Assembly: GCA_028683435.1 (NCBI GenBank) | Contig: JAQUIG010000003.1 | Location: 1 to 64,000, forward strand | DNA length: 64,000 nt | DNA from: Desulfuromonadaceae bacterium | Lineage (GTDB): Bacteria > Desulfobacterota > Desulfuromonadia > Geobacterales > Pseudopelobacteraceae | Direction of reading: 5' to 3' | Shown here: positions 30,757 through 60,062 of the stretch, in pieces | Position numbering within the stretch: the stretch's first letter is position 1 | How the letters are laid out: each line of letters starts with the position of its first letter | The notes under the pieces: generated by a model | Database searches by the model: none | What the model was told of the DNA's origin: nothing | The model's input: the letters and a program-made list of their open reading frames with translations, nothing else | Translations under genes and position numbers: made by a program

Positions 30757-32949
30757 ATGGCAGTAGCAGGGGAGATCCAGAAACAGGTTTTTGACCTTCT
30801 TTCGCGCGCCTCCAACATCTCTTTTGTGACTGCAGATCAGGAGGGGGGGAGCGTCAGCGTACTGGCCCCAGGTCAGCGGGTCAGTGCCGAAGTCTTATCG
30901 ACGCTGCCCAATAACCGGGCACAGGTGCAGGTCGGAGCCGAGCGTTTCAACCTTGATCTGCCGATGGCGGTTCGGGTCGGACAGTCCCTTGAGATGACCT
31001 TTGTCTCCAATGATCCGCGCTCCACCTTTGCCATCGCCCGCCAAACCGGTATCGCCCCGCCGGTGAGCCTTTCCGATGCCTCTCGCCTGTTAAGCCTGCT
31101 GGTCCCAGCCGAACAGACAGCCGATCCGCAGCTCCGCTCCTCCTTGCAGAGCATCGGTGAGATGCTGCGGCGTTCATCAGGAGAAGCCGCCGTGCTGGCC
31201 AACCTGCTGGATGAAGCGCTGATCTACGGAGCGGGGAAGGATTCGGCGCAAGCCACTTTAGCAGCTGGCGATGCCACCAAGGATTCTGGAGGGGCGCCGG
31301 GAACGGGGCGGTTAACTCCGGACCAGGCGCGTCTGGCGACGTTTGAAACAAATGCGGCCCAGATCCTCAGAAACATAGCCCAGAATTCACGCTTTACCCT
31401 TATTGAGGCAGCCAGTCAACCGCTGACGCCGTTGCCGCTCCTGCCTGGTGAAGAGGTCAGTGCGGCAATAGTCGGCACCCTGCCGGGTGGAAGAGCCATT
31501 GTACAGTTAGCCGGGACGACCCTGGAGCTGTTGCTCCCGCAGAAGGTCCAGCCGGGCGAAATCCTGCGCCTGACCTACCTGTCGGGAGAGCCTAAGCCCA
31601 CCTTTGCACTTTCCCGGGCACTCCCCGAAGGCGCTCCGCCTCTGCTGAGCGAGGCCGGACGCTGGCTGAGCGTGCTTGAACATAGCGAAGGGGGAGTGTC
31701 CAGCCAGCAGGCCTATGTGCTGGAACGGTTGAACAGTGTGCTGAAAAGTCTCCCCACGGATTCACCCGCCTTCAGCATTATTTCGGATGAAGCGCTGACC
31801 TACCAGAGAAGTCGGCAGATGCCGACGATATCCGATCCATCCGCCGCCCTTGCCGTCGCGGCGCAGAACAGTGCAGCGTCCGGAAACGGTATTGTGTTGA
31901 GCGACGATATGGCCAAACTTCTTCAGGCCGTTATCAAGGGAAACCGCCTGGCACTTCTTGAAGCTCTCAACCAGCAGGCCATACCGGCTGGTTTTGCGCC
32001 GGGGCAGCAGCTCCGGGGCGAGGTGATGGCATCCCTGGGCGGGGGGCGGTTTTCCGTCATGGTCGGCGCGCAGATGCTGGAGTTCCTCATGCCGAAAGGT
32101 GTCAGGCGTGGCGACCGCATCAATCTGTTTTTCATAACCGAAGAGCCGCATATGATATTTCTGATGGCGCGTTTCGGCCGTGTGTGGGACTCAAAAGTCA
32201 GCGACACCGGCCGCTGGCTGAGCGGCTTTCTCGGTGAAGCGTCCGGGCAGCTGCCGGCAGAGGCAACGATGGGCCTTCTGCGGACATTGCTGGCTGAGGC
32301 GACGACTGATGCTTCACTGCTCGGCCGGATGCTGCAGCAGGGCCTTCGTGAAAGCGGCCTGTTTTACGAGTCTCACCTGGCCCGCTGGTTCGGTGGCAAC
32401 TACAAACTGGGAGACCTCCTCAGGGAACCGCAAGGGTGTTTGTCTCCGCGCCTGCCCCAGGCGGGGGAACAGGGGGCTCCGATTGACGAGTTTGTTCTGG
32501 GGAGTGTTCGGAGCGGCGCAGCTGAAATAATTGAGGCGCTCTTTAAAAAAGCAGGCAGCAGCATGGCACATGAAGGAATAGCTGATCAGCGCGCCCTGCC
32601 GATCGTCGGCGAACAGCTGTCCGCGCTACAGAACGGCCAGCTGCTGTTTCGGGGTGATCTGTTCCCCGGGCAGTACATGGAGTGGACCGTTGCCGAGCGG
32701 GAAGCGGAGCGGAACCGGTCCGGCGCCCGAGAGCGGAGCTGGGAAACGAGCATAACCATTAGTCTGCCGAAACTGGGACCGGTCACGGCGCTGCTCACAC
32801 TCAATGGTGCCTGTGTCACCGTTAAAGTCACTGCCGGAAACAGCGCGACTGTCCCGGCTCTGGAAGATGGCAGGGCCCGCCTGGTTGAACAGTTGGAAGG
32901 AGCCGGACTTACACCGGCAGAGATGAGCATCAGCCATGCCGCGCCGTGA
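30757..32949 (+). CDS. Triple-repeat FliK-like hook-length protein
   Basis: A 730-residue soluble protein built from three copies of a unit of about 185 residues. Each opens with a beta-rich segment, PGQ/PGE-x-V...LP-x-x-RA-x-V...LP...V-x-x-G...F/L-x-R, at about 36-95, 228-287 and 413-472, followed by a helical stretch (RLLSLL, RWLSVL, RWLSGFL). The C-terminal 150 residues resemble the Flg_hook domain of FliK that talks to FlhB. The next gene encodes an FlhB C-terminal-like domain, which supports a FliK-type role. GGGGAGAG precedes the ATG. A second, ordinary fliK lies at 46249-47739. Confidence 0.75.
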   Translation: MAVAGEIQKQVFDLLSRASNISFVTADQEGGSVSVLAPGQRVSAEVLSTLPNNRAQVQVGAERFNLDLPMAVRVGQSLEMTFVSNDPRSTFAIARQTGIAPPVSLSDASRLLSLLVPAEQTADPQLRSSLQSIGEMLRRSSGEAAVLANLLDEALIYGAGKDSAQATLAAGDATKDSGGAPGTGRLTPDQARLATFETNAAQILRNIAQNSRFTLIEAASQPLTPLPLLPGEEVSAAIVGTLPGGRAIVQLAGTTLELLLPQKVQPGEILRLTYLSGEPKPTFALSRALPEGAPPLLSEAGRWLSVLEHSEGGVSSQQAYVLERLNSVLKSLPTDSPAFSIISDEALTYQRSRQMPTISDPSAALAVAAQNSAASGNGIVLSDDMAKLLQAVIKGNRLALLEALNQQAIPAGFAPGQQLRGEVMASLGGGRFSVMVGAQMLEFLMPKGVRRGDRINLFFITEEPHMIFLMARFGRVWDSKVSDTGRWLSGFLGEASGQLPAEATMGLLRTLLAEATTDASLLGRMLQQGLRESGLFYESHLARWFGGNYKLGDLLREPQGCLSPRLPQAGEQGAPIDEFVLGSVRSGAAEIIEALFKKAGSSMAHEGIADQRALPIVGEQLSALQNGQLLFRGDLFPGQYMEWTVAEREAERNRSGARERSWETSITISLPKLGPVTALLTLNGACVTVKVTAGNSATVPALEDGRARLVEQLEGAGLTPAEMSISHAAP

Positions 32950-33208
32950 CGATGAAGAGCGCCGTGCGGCGGCGCTTTCCTACAAACAGGGGTACTATGC
33001 CCCGGTTGTCGTTGCCCGGGGGAAGGGGGTTGTCGCGGAGGCGATCATCGCCTGTGCCCATGAAGCCGGTGTGTATGTCCATGAGTCGCCGGAGCTGGTC
33101 AGGCTTTTGATGCAGGTCGACGATGATCAGTTCATACCCCCCGAGCTGTATCGGGCGGTTGCTGAAGTGCTGGTATGGCTGCAGTGGCTGGAGGATCAGC
33201 AGAAGTAA
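32936..33208 (+). CDS. FlhB C-terminal-domain-like protein (FlhX type)
   Basis: A 90-residue protein matching the cytoplasmic substrate-switch domain of FlhB: AAALSYKQGYYAPVVVARGKG, then VVAEAIIACAHEAGVYVHESPELVRLL and IPPELYRAVAEVLVWL. The autocleavage motif NPTH is absent, its place being occupied by residues around YYAPVV. Such stand-alone modules (FlhX) can partly replace the FlhB C-domain in some bacteria. It overlaps the FliK-like gene by 14 bases, so the two are translationally coupled and probably interact. Confidence 0.85.
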   Translation: MPRRDDEERRAAALSYKQGYYAPVVVARGKGVVAEAIIACAHEAGVYVHESPELVRLLMQVDDDQFIPPELYRAVAEVLVWLQWLEDQQK

Positions 33209-53816: not shown

Positions 53817-54611
53817 ATGTTCCCGCTGCTCCCCTTTCCGTCCCCCCGTGAAGTCATTTTTTTTATGCTGGTGCTAAGTCGTGTCGCGGGCATATTTGCC
53901 GCACTGCCGGTTTTCGGCGGCCACACGGTACCGCTCCGTATAAAGGTGATCATCGTATTCATGATTACCTTGGTCTGTTTCCCGGCACTCTCGGTAGCAA
54001 TCCCTCAAGTGCCGCCGGATGTTTTCAGCCTCGCTCTGCTGGCGTTCAGCGAAGTCATGATCGGCCTGACGCTGGGATTCATAACCCAGGTCATCTTTGC
54101 CGCAGTCGAATTCAGCGGCCAGATCATCGGCATGCAGATGGGGTTGACCATCTCATCAATCATAGACCCCTCCAGAGGCACGCAGGTCCAGATCATGTCG
54201 GTTGTCCAGACACTGTTTGCGACGCTGATGTTTCTGTCGCTCAACATTCATCACCTGTTTCTCCGGGCGATTATGGACAGCTTCCGGGTGATTCCGCTCG
54301 GGGGGTGGCATCTGAGCGGGGAGCTGGTCAATTTTCTCGTCATGCGCACCGCTGATATTTTTATCATCGGTATCCGTCTGGCCGCACCGGTCATGGTGGC
54401 GCTGCTCCTTACCACGGTGGCACTCGGCGTCATGGCCCGGGCCTTTCCGCAGATGAATATCTTCATGATCAGCCTGCCGCTCAATGTTGGACTGGGGTTG
54501 GTAATTCTTGGCATGACCCTGACCATATTCTTCCACGTTCTCGAGGTCTCCTTCAGTAATCTTTCCGCCCACATAGCCACGCTCTTCCGGCTCATGGCAA
54601 AGGGGGGATGA
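53817..54611 (+). CDS. fliR: Flagellar export gate protein FliR
   Basis: A 264-residue gate subunit with about six membrane helices. Typical segments are VLSRVAGIFAALPVFGG, EVMIGLTLGFITQVIFAAVEFSGQ and LNVGLGLVILGMTLTIF. It ends in LMAKGG. Its last bases supply the G-rich ribosome site for flhB, which follows in the same frame after the TGA. Confidence 0.96.
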   Translation: MFPLLPFPSPREVIFFMLVLSRVAGIFAALPVFGGHTVPLRIKVIIVFMITLVCFPALSVAIPQVPPDVFSLALLAFSEVMIGLTLGFITQVIFAAVEFSGQIIGMQMGLTISSIIDPSRGTQVQIMSVVQTLFATLMFLSLNIHHLFLRAIMDSFRVIPLGGWHLSGELVNFLVMRTADIFIIGIRLAAPVMVALLLTTVALGVMARAFPQMNIFMISLPLNVGLGLVILGMTLTIFFHVLEVSFSNLSAHIATLFRLMAKGG

Positions 54612-54614
54612 CCT

Positions 54615-55688
54615 ACGGCTGAAGATTCGGACAAACACTCCAAAACAGAACAGCCAACCGGTAAAAGGCTGGAAAAGTCGCGCGAAGACAGTCCGCCCCC
54701 AATGAGCCAGATGCTGACGTCATCTCTCACTCTGCTCGCCGGTATCGTCAGCCTCTATATCTTCGGCAGCTTCATGATGGACGGCCTCAAACAGAGCACG
54801 GTCAAGATTCTGTCAACGATGGGCAGCTTCGATCTGACCGCAGCAAACCTGTATGTTTTGCTCCTCAAGCTGTTTGGAACAGTTGTACTGCTGCTGGCGC
54901 CCATTATCGTAACAATCATAGCCACCGCCGTTCTTTCCAAGCTGGTTCAGGACAACGGCAGGTTTGAGTTCCAGACATCGCGTCTGGGAGTAAAATTTGA
55001 CAAATTGAATCCGCTGAACGGCTTCAAGCGGCTGTTTAACAAAGATGCCCTGGTTGAGATGCTGAAATCGCTCCTCAAGCTGCTGGTTGTTGCCTGGATC
55101 GCCTACGGAGTGGTGCGGGATGAAATGCAGAATATCACCTTTCTGGCAGAAGCAGATATTCAGACTATTTTCGATTTTGTCGGCCACATCGCTTTCAAGA
55201 TCGTTACCCACACCTGCGGCATCCTGATCGTTCTCGGTCTGTTCGATATGCTCTATGTCAAGTGGCAGCATACCGAAAAGCTCAAAATGACAAAGCAGGA
55301 GGTCAAGGACGAACATAAAGAGTCCGACGGCAACCCTGAGACCAAGGGCAAAATCAAGAGGATGCAGTTTCAGATGGCGCGCCGCCGGATGACCAAAATT
55401 ATCCCGCTGGCCGACGTTGTCATCACCAACCCGACCCATTTTGCCGTCGCGCTCAAATATGACCGGCAGAAGATGGTCGCGCCGGTTGTCCTCGCCAAGG
55501 GGATGGATATCATGGCAGAGGCGATCAAGAAGATCGCCCGTGAACATAGTATCACTCTCGTGGAAAACCGTTTCCTCGCCCGTGAACTATATGACCAGGT
55601 AAAGGAAAACGAACCGATACCGGAAGCGCTCTACGCGGCCGTTGCCGAGGTGTTGGCGTATGTCTACAAGTTGAAGGGTAAGGTTTAG
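54615..55688 (+). CDS. flhB: Flagellar export switch protein FlhB with apparent ACG start
   Basis: FlhB is the substrate-specificity switch of the export gate. The chain has the conserved N-terminal segment KTEQPTGKRLEKSRE, about four membrane helices (30-210), and the C-domain with autocleavage motif NPTH (about 271-274) and PIPEALYAAVAEVLAYVYKL. No ATG, GTG or TTG stands before the N-terminal segment in this frame; the first ATG (54702) would remove it. The codon before Ala-Glu-Asp-Ser-Asp is ACG (54615), seven bases after AGGGGGG, an ideal ribosome site. With ACG the protein is 357 residues, the normal length. A one-base sequencing error is the other explanation. Confidence 0.85.
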   Translation, partial: TAEDSDKHSKTEQPTGKRLEKSREDSPPPMSQMLTSSLTLLAGIVSLYIFGSFMMDGLKQSTVKILSTMGSFDLTAANLYVLLLKLFGTVVLLLAPIIVTIIATAVLSKLVQDNGRFEFQTSRLGVKFDKLNPLNGFKRLFNKDALVEMLKSLLKLLVVAWIAYGVVRDEMQNITFLAEADIQTIFDFVGHIAFKIVTHTCGILIVLGLFDMLYVKWQHTEKLKMTKQEVKDEHKESDGNPETKGKIKRMQFQMARRRMTKIIPLADVVITNPTHFAVALKYDRQKMVAPVVLAKGMDIMAEAIKKIAREHSITLVENRFLARELYDQVKENEPIPEALYAAVAEVLAYVYKLKGKV

Positions 55689-55730: not shown

Positions 55731-56876
55731 ATGAAACAGATTATAGCAACTATTTTGTCAGCGGCTCTGTTTTTAAGCATCGGCGCCTGTGGAAAGAGTG
55801 ATTCAAAAAAAGAGGTTTCCAAACCCCCGGTGGCCGTAGAGGTGCGGGCAGCTTCGTCCAACAGCATATCGGATGGTATCGAGGTGACCGGCGGCCTGGA
55901 ACCAAAGTTCTCGGTGGATGTGAAAACCCAGATTCCGGGGCTGGTCAGGCAGGTCATGGTGTCCGAGTGGGTGCATGTCAAGAAGGGCCAGCCGCTGGTT
56001 CTTATCAATGTTCCAGAAGCCGAGGCCCAGGTCAAGCGAGCCGAGGCAGGGGTTGCCTCTGCCAGAGCGAATCTTGCTGAGGCCCGGGTGGCGGAGGGCC
56101 GTGCTGAACGGGAACGGGTCCGTTCCCTCAAGCTGAAAGAGTCCGGTCTGGCGACACAGCAGGCGGTTGATGACGCCCGGAGTGAAACAGAGGCAGCCAA
56201 AGCGCGGGTTGCCGCCGCTGCCGCCCAAATCCGTGTTGCCGAAGAAGATCTGCGTCAAGGGATAGCCCGCCGGGCAAAAGGGAGCGTCGTCGCACCTATC
56301 GATGGGATCGTCGCGTCGCGGGATGTCAATGTTGGTGATCTGGCCAGTGATGCCGCTGCTGCTAAACCGATTTTTCGCATCGTGGATAATCGCCTGCTCA
56401 ATTTGACCGTGACCGTCCCGTCGGTCGATTCCGGGCGGGTCAAGGTCGGCCAGTCGTTGGAGTTTACTGTCGATTCTCAGCCTGGCCGTACGTTTACCGG
56501 TAAAGTAATGTATATCAACCCCGAGCTTTCTTCGACAGACCGTTCATTGAAGGTTATCGCTGAAGTGAGTAACACTCCCGGAGACCTCAAAGGGGGGATG
56601 TTTGCCAAAGGGCGCATCATTACCGGGGTCCGTGCAGAGGTGCTGCAGGTGCCGCGCAGCGCGGTTGGCTCTTTCGACACGCAGGCGAAACGTGGCAGTT
56701 TATTCATCGTCAAAAACGGTGTCGTCCGCAAGCGGGAGATACTGAGCGGCGTCGTAAATGGCGACATGGTCGAGGTTGTTTCGGGGATTAAACCGGGAGA
56801 ACAGTATGTGGTCCGGGGCGGGTTCAACTTGAAAGATGGCGATAAGGTCGCTGTAGCAGCAACAAAAGAACCTTAA
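55731..56876 (+). CDS. RND efflux membrane-fusion lipoprotein
   Basis: A 381-residue periplasmic adaptor. The signal ends in a lipobox (SIGAC, Cys20). A biotinyl-lipoyl-like domain (SVDVKTQIPGLVRQVMVSEWVHVKKGQPLV, in two halves around a coiled coil at about 100-185), beta-barrel domain (about 215-300) and membrane-proximal domain complete the HlyD/AcrA pattern. It couples the pump encoded next to a TolC-like channel. Substrate is not shown by the sequence. Confidence 0.93.
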   Translation: MKQIIATILSAALFLSIGACGKSDSKKEVSKPPVAVEVRAASSNSISDGIEVTGGLEPKFSVDVKTQIPGLVRQVMVSEWVHVKKGQPLVLINVPEAEAQVKRAEAGVASARANLAEARVAEGRAERERVRSLKLKESGLATQQAVDDARSETEAAKARVAAAAAQIRVAEEDLRQGIARRAKGSVVAPIDGIVASRDVNVGDLASDAAAAKPIFRIVDNRLLNLTVTVPSVDSGRVKVGQSLEFTVDSQPGRTFTGKVMYINPELSSTDRSLKVIAEVSNTPGDLKGGMFAKGRIITGVRAEVLQVPRSAVGSFDTQAKRGSLFIVKNGVVRKREILSGVVNGDMVEVVSGIKPGEQYVVRGGFNLKDGDKVAVAATKEP

Positions 56877-56904
56877 CCCAGATAAACTGGATAAGTGCGT
56901 TAAC

Positions 56905-56943
56905 GAAATTATTTCCTTGCCAAAAAACGCAAGAAATAATTTC
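56905..56943. other. Long A+T-rich hairpin between adaptor and pump genes
   Basis: GAAATTATTTCCTTGC (56905-56920) is matched by GCAAGAAATAATTTC (56929-56943): 15 pairs with one bulged C around loop CAAAAAAC. It ends 20 bases before the pump ATG. There is no T-run, so it may be a processing or attenuation site that sets the adaptor:pump ratio. Confidence 0.65.
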
Positions 56944-56963
56944 TAACTTACTAAGGAAACGGC

Positions 56964-59900
56964 ATGATCCTCTCCAATACCTCCATCAAGCGCCCGATCT
57001 TTGCCACGGTCATGATTCTGGCCCTGGTTGTACTCGGCATTTTTTCCTATCGCCGCCTGTCGGTAGAGATGTTTCCCAACGTAGAGTTTCCGGTTGTCTC
57101 GGTTGTCACGGTTTTTGCCGGCGCTTCGCCGGAAACGATCGAGCGGGAGGTTTCCAAGCGTATTGAGGAAACGGTTAATCAGATCGCCGGAGTGAAGCAT
57201 GTCTTTTCAACCTCGCGAGAGGGGGTCTCGACGGTTGTGATTGAGTTCCGTCTTGAGGAGAAGGTCAACGATGCGGCTCAGGAGGTGCGGGCCAAAATTG
57301 CCTCCATACGTGGGACGCTCCCTGAAGCCATCGAAGAACCGATCATCCAGAAACTGGACTTTAATGCCGCGCCGATTGCGGCGCTGGCGATCGAGTCCGC
57401 GACGATGTCGCCCCGTGAACTGACAACGCTGGTGGAGAAGAAGGTTAAAAAGCGCTTCGAGAGTGTCGCCGGAGTTGGCAAGGTGGATATGGTCGGCGGT
57501 CAGAAGCGCGAGGTCAATATCAATCTCGATCCGGCCAGAATGGATGCGCTCAAGCTGGGAGTCAACGACATTGTTACCGGCATCCGTTCCGAGAACACCA
57601 ACACTCCGCTTGGGCGCATAACGCGCGGTTCGGCAGAATATCCGCTGCGAATTGAAGGTAAGCCGGAGCGGGCCGATCAGTACCGCCGGATGACCGTGGC
57701 CCGGAGGGACGGCCGTCCGATCACGCTGGGCGAGGTGGCGGATATACGTGACGGCATTGAAGAAAAACGCAGATTGGCGCTGGTCAACGGCAAGCCTGCC
57801 ATCGGCCTGGATATATACAAGCAGTCAGGCGGCAATCAGGTCGAGCTGGTTGATACGGTCAAAAAGGTCATGGTCAAGGTGCAGAAAGAGCTGCCGTCCG
57901 GAGTGACTCTTTCTCTGGTCCGCGACGGCTCGATCATGACCCGCGAGTCGCTGGCCGACGTCAAGGAAACCCTGCTGATCGGCGGCATACTGACGGTGCT
58001 GATAGTTTTCTGCTTTATCAACTCCTGGCGCTCGACGGTGATTACCGGTGTGACCCTGCCGATTTCGGTGGTCTCCACGTTCATCATCATGAATGCGCTC
58101 GGCATGACGCTGAACGTCATGACCCTGATGGCTCTTTCTCTCGCCATCGGCCTGCTGATTGACGATGCCATCGTCGTGCGGGAGAATATCGTCCGCCATC
58201 TGGAGATGGGCAAAGACCATATGGAGGCGGCTCGCTTCGGCACGTCAGAGATCGGCCTGGCGGTCTTCTCCACCTCCATGTCGATCGTTGCGGTGTTTAT
58301 ACCGGTGGCTTTCATGAAGGGGATCGTCGGACGCTTTTTCTACCAGTTCGGCATCAGTGTCGCCTTCGCCGTGCTTGTCTCACTGTTCGTTTCGTTCACC
58401 CTCGATCCGATGCTTTCCTCCCGCTGGCATGACCCCTCGATTCACCTGCAGGGGAAGCGGAAGGGGATTGCCAGCTATCTGGAAAAATTCAATTCCTGGT
58501 TTGACAGGAGTGCCGACAGATACCGCGGTGCCATCGCCTGGGCTCTGGATCACCGCACAAGTGTCATGGCACTTGCCTTTGCCGCTTTTGCCGCCGGGCT
58601 GTTGATTTTCAGCACCCTGGAGTCATCTTTCATGTCCCCGTCTGACAAGGGTGAGTTTCAAATCGCTTTCAAAACCGCGCCGGACGCCTCAATAGTTGAA
58701 ACCGAGAATCGAATGAATGCGGTCATCGCGGCTGTTAAAGTTGCCCCGGAGGTTGACCATACCTATGCCACGATCGGCGCCGGAGACAGCGGCACTGTGC
58801 GGGACGGCCTGCTGTATGTGAAGCTCAAGGAGCGAAAATCGAGGGACAAGAATCAGTTTCTACTGCAGCGGGAAGTACGGGAGCGCTTGCAGAAGGTGGC
58901 TGGAATTACCTTTTCCATCGAAGAGGTCGGGCAGATCGGCGGGGCGCAAAAATCGCTCAACGTCAACCTCAAGGGTGATGATCTGATGATTCTTAAAGGA
59001 CTTGGAGCGCGCCTGAAAGAGGAGCTCTACAAAGTGCCGGGCATCGTCGACCTTTCAATGACCCTGGAGAATGATATCCCAGAATACCGCATGCGGGTTG
59101 ACCGTGATAAAGCCCTGTCGGCCGGTGTTACAACGGGTGATATCGTCGCTGCAATCAGCCGCCTGGTCGGTGGGGAGGCTATTTCGACCTTTGAGGATGA
59201 AGATGGCGATGCGGTTAATCTCCGCGTGCGCCTTCCGGCAAATCTACGGGAGAATGCTGCTCAGGTCCTGGACCTGAACGTATCAGTGCCTGACGGGGGT
59301 GGCGGCGTCAAGCTGATACCGCTCTCCAGCCTGACCAGCACGGTGGTGGCCGCCTCGCCGACCGAAATAAACCGGCGCGATCTTGCCCGGCAGGTAACCG
59401 TCAGTGCCAACCTTGACCGGTTGCCGGTCGGTACTGCGGCCACGTATGTGGAGGAGGCTTCCAAAAAGATCAACATGCCCCCCGGTTACTCGGTCAACCT
59501 CTCCGGTGAGGCCGAAGATATGGCAGAATCGTTCGGTTACATGGGGGAGTCGCTGCTGCTGGCGGTGCTGCTGGTTTACCTTATTCTGGCCGCCCAGTTT
59601 GAATCGTTCTTCGAGCCGCTTGCCATCATGCTTTCCCTGCCGCTCTCGATCGTCGGTATGGCCGGCATGCTCAAGCTGACTGGTGACACGGTCAATATCA
59701 TGTCGCTGATCGGCCTGATCATGCTGATGGGGCTGGTAACCAAGAATGCAATTCTGCTCGTCGATTATGCCAAGGTTCTCCAGCTCAGGGACGGCATGGG
59801 ACGCCGTGAAGCGGTTATTCTGGCCGGTCGCACACGGCTGCGGCCGATCATGATGACGACACTGGCGATGGTTTTTGGCATGATGCCGCTTTTCCTTGGT

Positions 59901-60062
59901 CTCGGCGCCGGAGCCGAAGGGCGCGCTCCGATGGCTAGAGCCGTGGTTGGCGGCCTGTTGACTTCAACCCTGCTGACACTGTTGGTGGTGCCGGTTATGT
60001 ACACGCTGATGGACGATCTGGGGAGTTGGCTGAAACGGCGATGGAAAGGGCATAATGCCTGA
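56964..60062 (+). CDS. RND-family efflux pump (AcrB/HAE1 type)
   Basis: A 1032-residue inner-membrane proton-driven pump: helix 1 at about 12-30, periplasmic porter domain 1, helices 2-6 (about 330-530), porter domain 2, helices 7-12 (about 850-1025). Helix 4 carries the proton-relay Asp pair in LAIGLLIDDAIVVRENI, and helix 10 the lysine in MGLVTKNAILLVDYAK. The type is multidrug/solvent (HAE-1-like), not a CusA metal pump, as the CusA methionine triad is not obvious. Stop overlaps the next gene by eight bases. Confidence 0.95.
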   Translation: MILSNTSIKRPIFATVMILALVVLGIFSYRRLSVEMFPNVEFPVVSVVTVFAGASPETIEREVSKRIEETVNQIAGVKHVFSTSREGVSTVVIEFRLEEKVNDAAQEVRAKIASIRGTLPEAIEEPIIQKLDFNAAPIAALAIESATMSPRELTTLVEKKVKKRFESVAGVGKVDMVGGQKREVNINLDPARMDALKLGVNDIVTGIRSENTNTPLGRITRGSAEYPLRIEGKPERADQYRRMTVARRDGRPITLGEVADIRDGIEEKRRLALVNGKPAIGLDIYKQSGGNQVELVDTVKKVMVKVQKELPSGVTLSLVRDGSIMTRESLADVKETLLIGGILTVLIVFCFINSWRSTVITGVTLPISVVSTFIIMNALGMTLNVMTLMALSLAIGLLIDDAIVVRENIVRHLEMGKDHMEAARFGTSEIGLAVFSTSMSIVAVFIPVAFMKGIVGRFFYQFGISVAFAVLVSLFVSFTLDPMLSSRWHDPSIHLQGKRKGIASYLEKFNSWFDRSADRYRGAIAWALDHRTSVMALAFAAFAAGLLIFSTLESSFMSPSDKGEFQIAFKTAPDASIVETENRMNAVIAAVKVAPEVDHTYATIGAGDSGTVRDGLLYVKLKERKSRDKNQFLLQREVRERLQKVAGITFSIEEVGQIGGAQKSLNVNLKGDDLMILKGLGARLKEELYKVPGIVDLSMTLENDIPEYRMRVDRDKALSAGVTTGDIVAAISRLVGGEAISTFEDEDGDAVNLRVRLPANLRENAAQVLDLNVSVPDGGGGVKLIPLSSLTSTVVAASPTEINRRDLARQVTVSANLDRLPVGTAATYVEEASKKINMPPGYSVNLSGEAEDMAESFGYMGESLLLAVLLVYLILAAQFESFFEPLAIMLSLPLSIVGMAGMLKLTGDTVNIMSLIGLIMLMGLVTKNAILLVDYAKVLQLRDGMGRREAVILAGRTRLRPIMMTTLAMVFGMMPLFLGLGAGAEGRAPMARAVVGGLLTSTLLTLLVVPVMYTLMDDLGSWLKRRWKGHNA

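Follow-up and report, generated by a model that had tools for sequence, protein, structure and literature searches.

A conserved ACG or CTG start codon behind a very strong Shine-Dalgarno sequence in the flagellar gene flhB of the Trichlorobacter group

The flagellar export gene flhB of a bacterium of the Trichlorobacter group of Geobacterales (not Geobacter in the narrow sense) is very probably translated from a near-cognate ACG codon, which an exceptionally strong Shine-Dalgarno sequence would put in place and which probably receives ribosomes terminating on the preceding gene, fliR. The gene lies in a 64,000-nucleotide stretch of DNA, referred to here as the window. Comparison across species sets the flhB start at this ACG, and reveals a start that has been conserved as a weak codon and that occurs together with a strong Shine-Dalgarno sequence.

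In the window, fliR (PF01311, TIGR01400) occupies positions 53817..54611 of the plus strand, with its TGA stop at 54609-54611, and the flhB coding sequence of 357 aa follows on the same strand at 54615..55688 (stop TAG at 55686-55688). Read directly, the junction between the 3' end of fliR and the 5' end of flhB is ...GCA AAG GGG GGA TGA CCT ACG GCT GAA GAT TCG GAC AAA..., and the two genes share one frame with TGA-CCT between them. The last sense codons of fliR, AAG GGG GGA, constitute the ribosome-binding site of flhB: the Shine-Dalgarno sequence AAGGGGGG (54600..54607, plus strand), recognised by its duplex energy and per-base conservation, lies within the 3' end of fliR and is separated by a 7-nt spacer from the ACG (54615..54617, plus strand), which itself stands 3 nt past the fliR stop. 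The earliest ATG, GTG or TTG in frame with flhB is found at 54702. Another ATG (54608..54610, plus strand) overlaps the fliR stop, is out of frame (it reads ATG ACC TAC GGC TGA), leaves no spacer to the ribosome site and is missing in several relatives; it is not the start. These observations agree with a sequence-only reading of the same DNA, which had reported a strong ribosome site seven bases before an ACG, no canonical flhB start upstream of 54702, and an ATG at 54608 that is out of frame and abuts the ribosome site. Its flhB frame was as described; its coordinate for the first alanine codon was not, as GCT starts at 54618 and 54615 is the first base of the ACG.

Translated from the ACG, the frame encodes a full-length member of the FlhB family: PF01312 is matched with E=1.1e-118 over profile positions 2-335 of 335, and TIGR00328 (flhB) scores 374 bits against a cut-off of 349. 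The Pfam match (Bac_export_2) begins at residue 9 counting from the ACG, and the conserved N-terminus extends up to that codon. What follows flhB directly, at window positions 55731-60062, is not flhA: the translations point to an RND-type efflux pair of a membrane fusion protein and a pump. A short protein of 93 aa resembling the C-terminus of FlhB is encoded at window positions 32927-33208, matches FlhB residues 274-352 and is present in most relatives.

The FlhB protein was used as a query against 58 genomes of the order, then 141, and against genome contigs, and the loci with the junction were recovered. Among 66 species of the family the homologous start codon is CTG in 34, ACG in 29, TTG in two and ATG in one, and nothing else was seen; ACG or CTG therefore stands at the orthologous position in 63 of 66 species, a conserved non-canonical start. 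The window's own genus (g1) contains 29 species with ACG (the window included), three with CTG and one with ATG, while in the family's other eight genera (g10-g17) the codon is CTG in 31 species and TTG in two. In other families of the order, ATG was found in 20 sampled species and GTG in one. The sequence-only reading had proposed the ACG start as one of two alternatives and suggested comparing it with the flhB starts of relatives; the recurrence of ACG at the same codon in 29 species, with CTG in sister genera and a nearly invariant Shine-Dalgarno sequence, sustains its proposal. Metagenome assemblies represent those ACG species that could be found by name, and closed or nearly closed genomes are present among the CTG species. 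The distance from the fliR stop to the flhB start is 3 nt in nearly all 66 species, a short distance of the kind expected for a coupled pair. The motif AAAGGGGGGATGANNN(A/C)(C/T)GNNNGANGR has a single occurrence in each of 52 genomes of the family, was absent from the roughly 200 further genomes searched in the class and was not found in viral contigs; since it is confined in this way within the class, the flhB junction is not a product of chance.

Several loci deserve separate mention. The closest relative, G013 (L002/L031; FlhB 97% identical), carries ATG in place of ACG, with a weaker ribosome site, AATGGGGGG. Three flhB copies are not counted in the 66: an additional one in G020, a contaminated genome, and two divergent ones with ATG. 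The former (L083, G020:C55) is nearly identical to the flhB of G104, from another genus, and is probably a foreign contig in the G020 bin (9% contamination). The latter (L099 in G103 and L103 in G002) have an ATG start and no strong ribosome site; their genomes are assigned to the family, and the tree places these copies with another family, pointing to transfer or contamination. Five genomes of the genus that are 92-100% complete (G007, G028, G033, G034 and G035) gave no flhB match, and have probably lost flagella.

In the ribosome site, the sequence AAAGGGGGGA hardly varies across the family, GGGG at -13 to -10 is found in all 66 species, and the spacing to the start is suitable (7 nt). The duplex of the window's AAGGGGGG with the 16S 3' end has an energy of -13.3 kcal/mol, and the mean is about -13.3 kcal/mol in the family for ACG, CTG or TTG starts, as compared to -4.7 kcal/mol for ATG starts in other families; the only ATG relative with this junction reaches -11.2 kcal/mol. 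On a tree of 87 FlhB proteins, built with the start residue excluded, the flhB clade of the family has a support of 100/100, and the weak start falls on that one branch. Since the energies split by family and codon, the strong site and the weak codon co-occur on a single well-supported branch. The same direction of compensation has been described for GUG and UUG starts generally by Belinky et al. (PMC5622118). RNA structure around the flhB start displays no special fold (z 0.2).

In its evolution the codon resembles a start and differs from ordinary sense codons. All 66 species have G at the third base, an invariance shared by none of the 58 amino-acid-conserved degenerate flhB columns in the family. 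Not one of ten conserved threonine columns in flhB of the genus keeps a single codon; among conserved leucine columns of the CTG group, the start alone does so, and the others vary. Among the conserved fourfold sites in the genus at which C is the majority base, T averages 18% and no site has at least 96% C, while the middle C of the ACG is changed to T in one species only. The codon preceding the start takes 14 different forms, stop codons among them.

The FlhB tree requires six changes among five codon types. ACG and CTG differ by two bases, and the path between them passes through ATG, which is a better start, or through CCG, which barely serves as one. Since ATG is seen once though it would be a functional intermediate, ATG intermediates appear to have been short-lived or rare, and this would argue for selection against a strong start. 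We tentatively suggest, short of an even chance, that the flhB start is held by selection at a poor codon across the family, passing between CTG and ACG and avoiding ATG and GTG, that IF3 and the termination of fliR control the supply of FlhB, and that this is the first conserved bacterial ACG start as far as we could find; no report of such a start, or of a family-wide alternation of CTG and ACG in a flagellar gene, was found in the open-licence literature. A serious though rather doubtful competitor is that the ACG start is real and selectively neutral, the strong Shine-Dalgarno sequence and the coupling making any NTG or ACG adequate with no selection for low FlhB. The strong site does accompany every codon type seen in the family, and a codon propped up in this way could drift among weak starts. 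Drift is harder to reconcile with the complete absence of GTG and the rarity of TTG and ATG despite saturated third positions, with the solitary ATG on a two-step path where it is the functional intermediate, and with the general tendency of such starts to revert quickly to AUG (PMC5622118).

These two readings share the ACG as the point of initiation. An internal start, at 54702 or 54711, is very unlikely. Codon 33 is ATG, GTG or TTG in most relatives, but the position of the first canonical codon differs among them, 54702 has a poor ribosome site (-1.0 kcal/mol), and the 28 codons upstream are under strong amino-acid constraint. Between the window and its relatives, codons 2-29 show 314 synonymous and 101 nonsynonymous differences, and the third position varies within the genus in all 28 codons of the N-terminal segment AEDSDKHSKTEQPTGKRL... 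(54618..54701, plus strand), which a start at 54702 would remove; by this measure the coding constraint extends to flhB codon 2. Initiation at 54702 would truncate the Bac_export_2 domain, which begins at residue 9; the sequence-only reading had held that it would remove the conserved N-terminus. Export is affected by mutations in the N-terminus of FlhB, which lies close to where its cytoplasmic domain begins (PMC7064499); losing that segment would therefore be expected to harm. In a coarse scan of 42 conserved window genes for conservation upstream of every ATG, GTG or TTG, flhB stands out; the other flagged genes either overlap a gene upstream of them or, in the cases inspected, start in an ordinary way.

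Readthrough of the UGA, producing a FliR-FlhB fusion functionally like the fused gene of Clostridium, is highly improbable. In nearly all relatives a single codon separates fliR from flhB and the frame is shared, and natural FliR-FlhB fusions exist (NF009411; PMC7064499), but tandem stops (TGA TAA or TGA TAG) directly precede the CTG start in L087, L091 and L095, the two frames differ in L079, and a readthrough product would need neither a conserved start-like codon nor a Shine-Dalgarno sequence. Moreover, the C-terminus of FliR is periplasmic whereas the N-terminus of FlhB is cytoplasmic (PMC7064499). The Clostridium fusion likewise ties the production of FliR and FlhB together; the window, in contrast, encodes two proteins, with a stop and a new start. 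It is exceedingly improbable that ribosomes initiate at the out-of-frame ATG at 54608 and then shift frame by +1. Coupled genes commonly start in an ATGA overlap, and a +1 shift at GGC-TGA would reach the flhB frame; yet this ATG is missing in L079, L083 and L085 and is GTG in L016, it directly adjoins the Shine-Dalgarno sequence, leaving no room for a spacer, and a conserved slippery stretch is absent. Tandem stops, the frame offset and the lost ATG together speak against programmed recoding of either kind. A sequencing or assembly error, raised in the sequence-only reading as one wrong base, can be practically discounted: the true codon could be ATG, as in the nearest relative G013, or deletion of one inserted C could bring the ATG at 54608 into frame as ATGACTACGGCT, but this is contradicted by identical ACG codons in independent assemblies of 29 species, with the same frame length in nearly all, and one such error could not also account for the CTG of sister genera. 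Editing of C to U, which would convert ACG to AUG and is known in plastids, was set aside: we know of no bacterial case, and CTG would be turned into UUG.

We therefore return to initiation at the ACG itself and to the translation machinery of the host. An altered initiator tRNA was rejected: the initiator tRNA of the window's genome is single-copy and its anticodon arm, GGGCTCATAACCC, is normal. In the same genome, infC has ATA as its start codon, preceded by AGGGGGTG (L129, G000:C13, 2013-2011, minus strand), and the ATA start is kept in eight other genomes of the order examined. This indicates that a non-AUG start of the IF3 type is in use in the window's genome. The infC start looks as if IF3 discrimination were working in the host, and the flhB start is built in the same way. 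To our knowledge, ACG is absent from the start list of NCBI's table 11, and Hecht and colleagues are said to have found it, in 2017, to be a poor start in E. coli. For CUG, an output of 0.86% of AUG in E. coli and a share of 0.024% of bacterial initiation codons are quoted in PMC11497404. By analogy with these quoted values, with CUG below 1% of AUG, a low FlhB level is plausible. Excess IF3 cuts reinitiation at AUG about threefold, and less so with a Shine-Dalgarno sequence (PMC2268962).

Initiation at the ACG could proceed as follows. A 30S subunit would be held by AAGGGGGG inside the last fliR codons, placing the ACG in the P site, where fMet-tRNA would initiate despite the middle-base mismatch; FlhB would carry fMet at residue 1. 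The ribosome would probably be one just finishing fliR at the TGA 3 nt upstream (termination-reinitiation), and the fixed stop-to-start distance fits such coupling. Only some of the fliR-terminating ribosomes would restart at the ACG, and the output of FlhB would be in step with FliR at a fraction of its level. IF3 should repress this start. Scarcity of FlhB may have been selected, with one copy per export gate. The gate is composed of FliP5-Q4-R1 with FlhB added (PMC7064499), so that a low supply of FlhB tied to FliR would be sensible.

Conserved weak starts with a strong Shine-Dalgarno sequence are already known from infC, pcnB, sigR, ccpN and cvfC1, and by its composition the flhB start is a weak start of the infC, sigR and ccpN kind. 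The infC gene, encoding IF3, has a long-conserved near-cognate start (AUU, AUA or AUC) and a strong ribosome site in E. coli and others, as does flhB; the infC start is repressed by IF3 and autoregulated. It has a third-base mismatch, whereas that of flhB is in the middle base (ACG) or the first (CTG), and flhB, unlike infC, is a flagellar export gene whose start is 3 nt after an upstream stop. The rare GTC start of sigR in Streptomyces keeps one protein scarce relative to its partner, and was likewise misannotated since gene finders accept only ATG, GTG and TTG; it differs in its codon and in belonging to a regulated sigma factor, and the effect of IF3 on it was demonstrated by experiment in Streptomyces (PMC5472188). 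In Staphylococcus aureus, ccpN (AUA) and cvfC1 (AUU) similarly combine a conserved non-canonical start with an extended Shine-Dalgarno sequence, and these starts yield about 10-30% of AUG output in reporters; they have third-base mismatches and were discovered by ribosome profiling, and the text of that study does not mention ACG or CUG starts (PMC13009471).

Since common gene finders allow only ATG, GTG and TTG, FlhB of Trichlorobacter and its relatives is probably annotated about 29 residues short throughout the family. Such an annotation would drop a segment that plays a part in the export switch. The conserved ACG, with CTG in sister genera, provides a comparative system for studying how a Shine-Dalgarno sequence compensates for a bad start codon, and for asking whether bad start codons set the stoichiometry of membrane complexes in bacteria.
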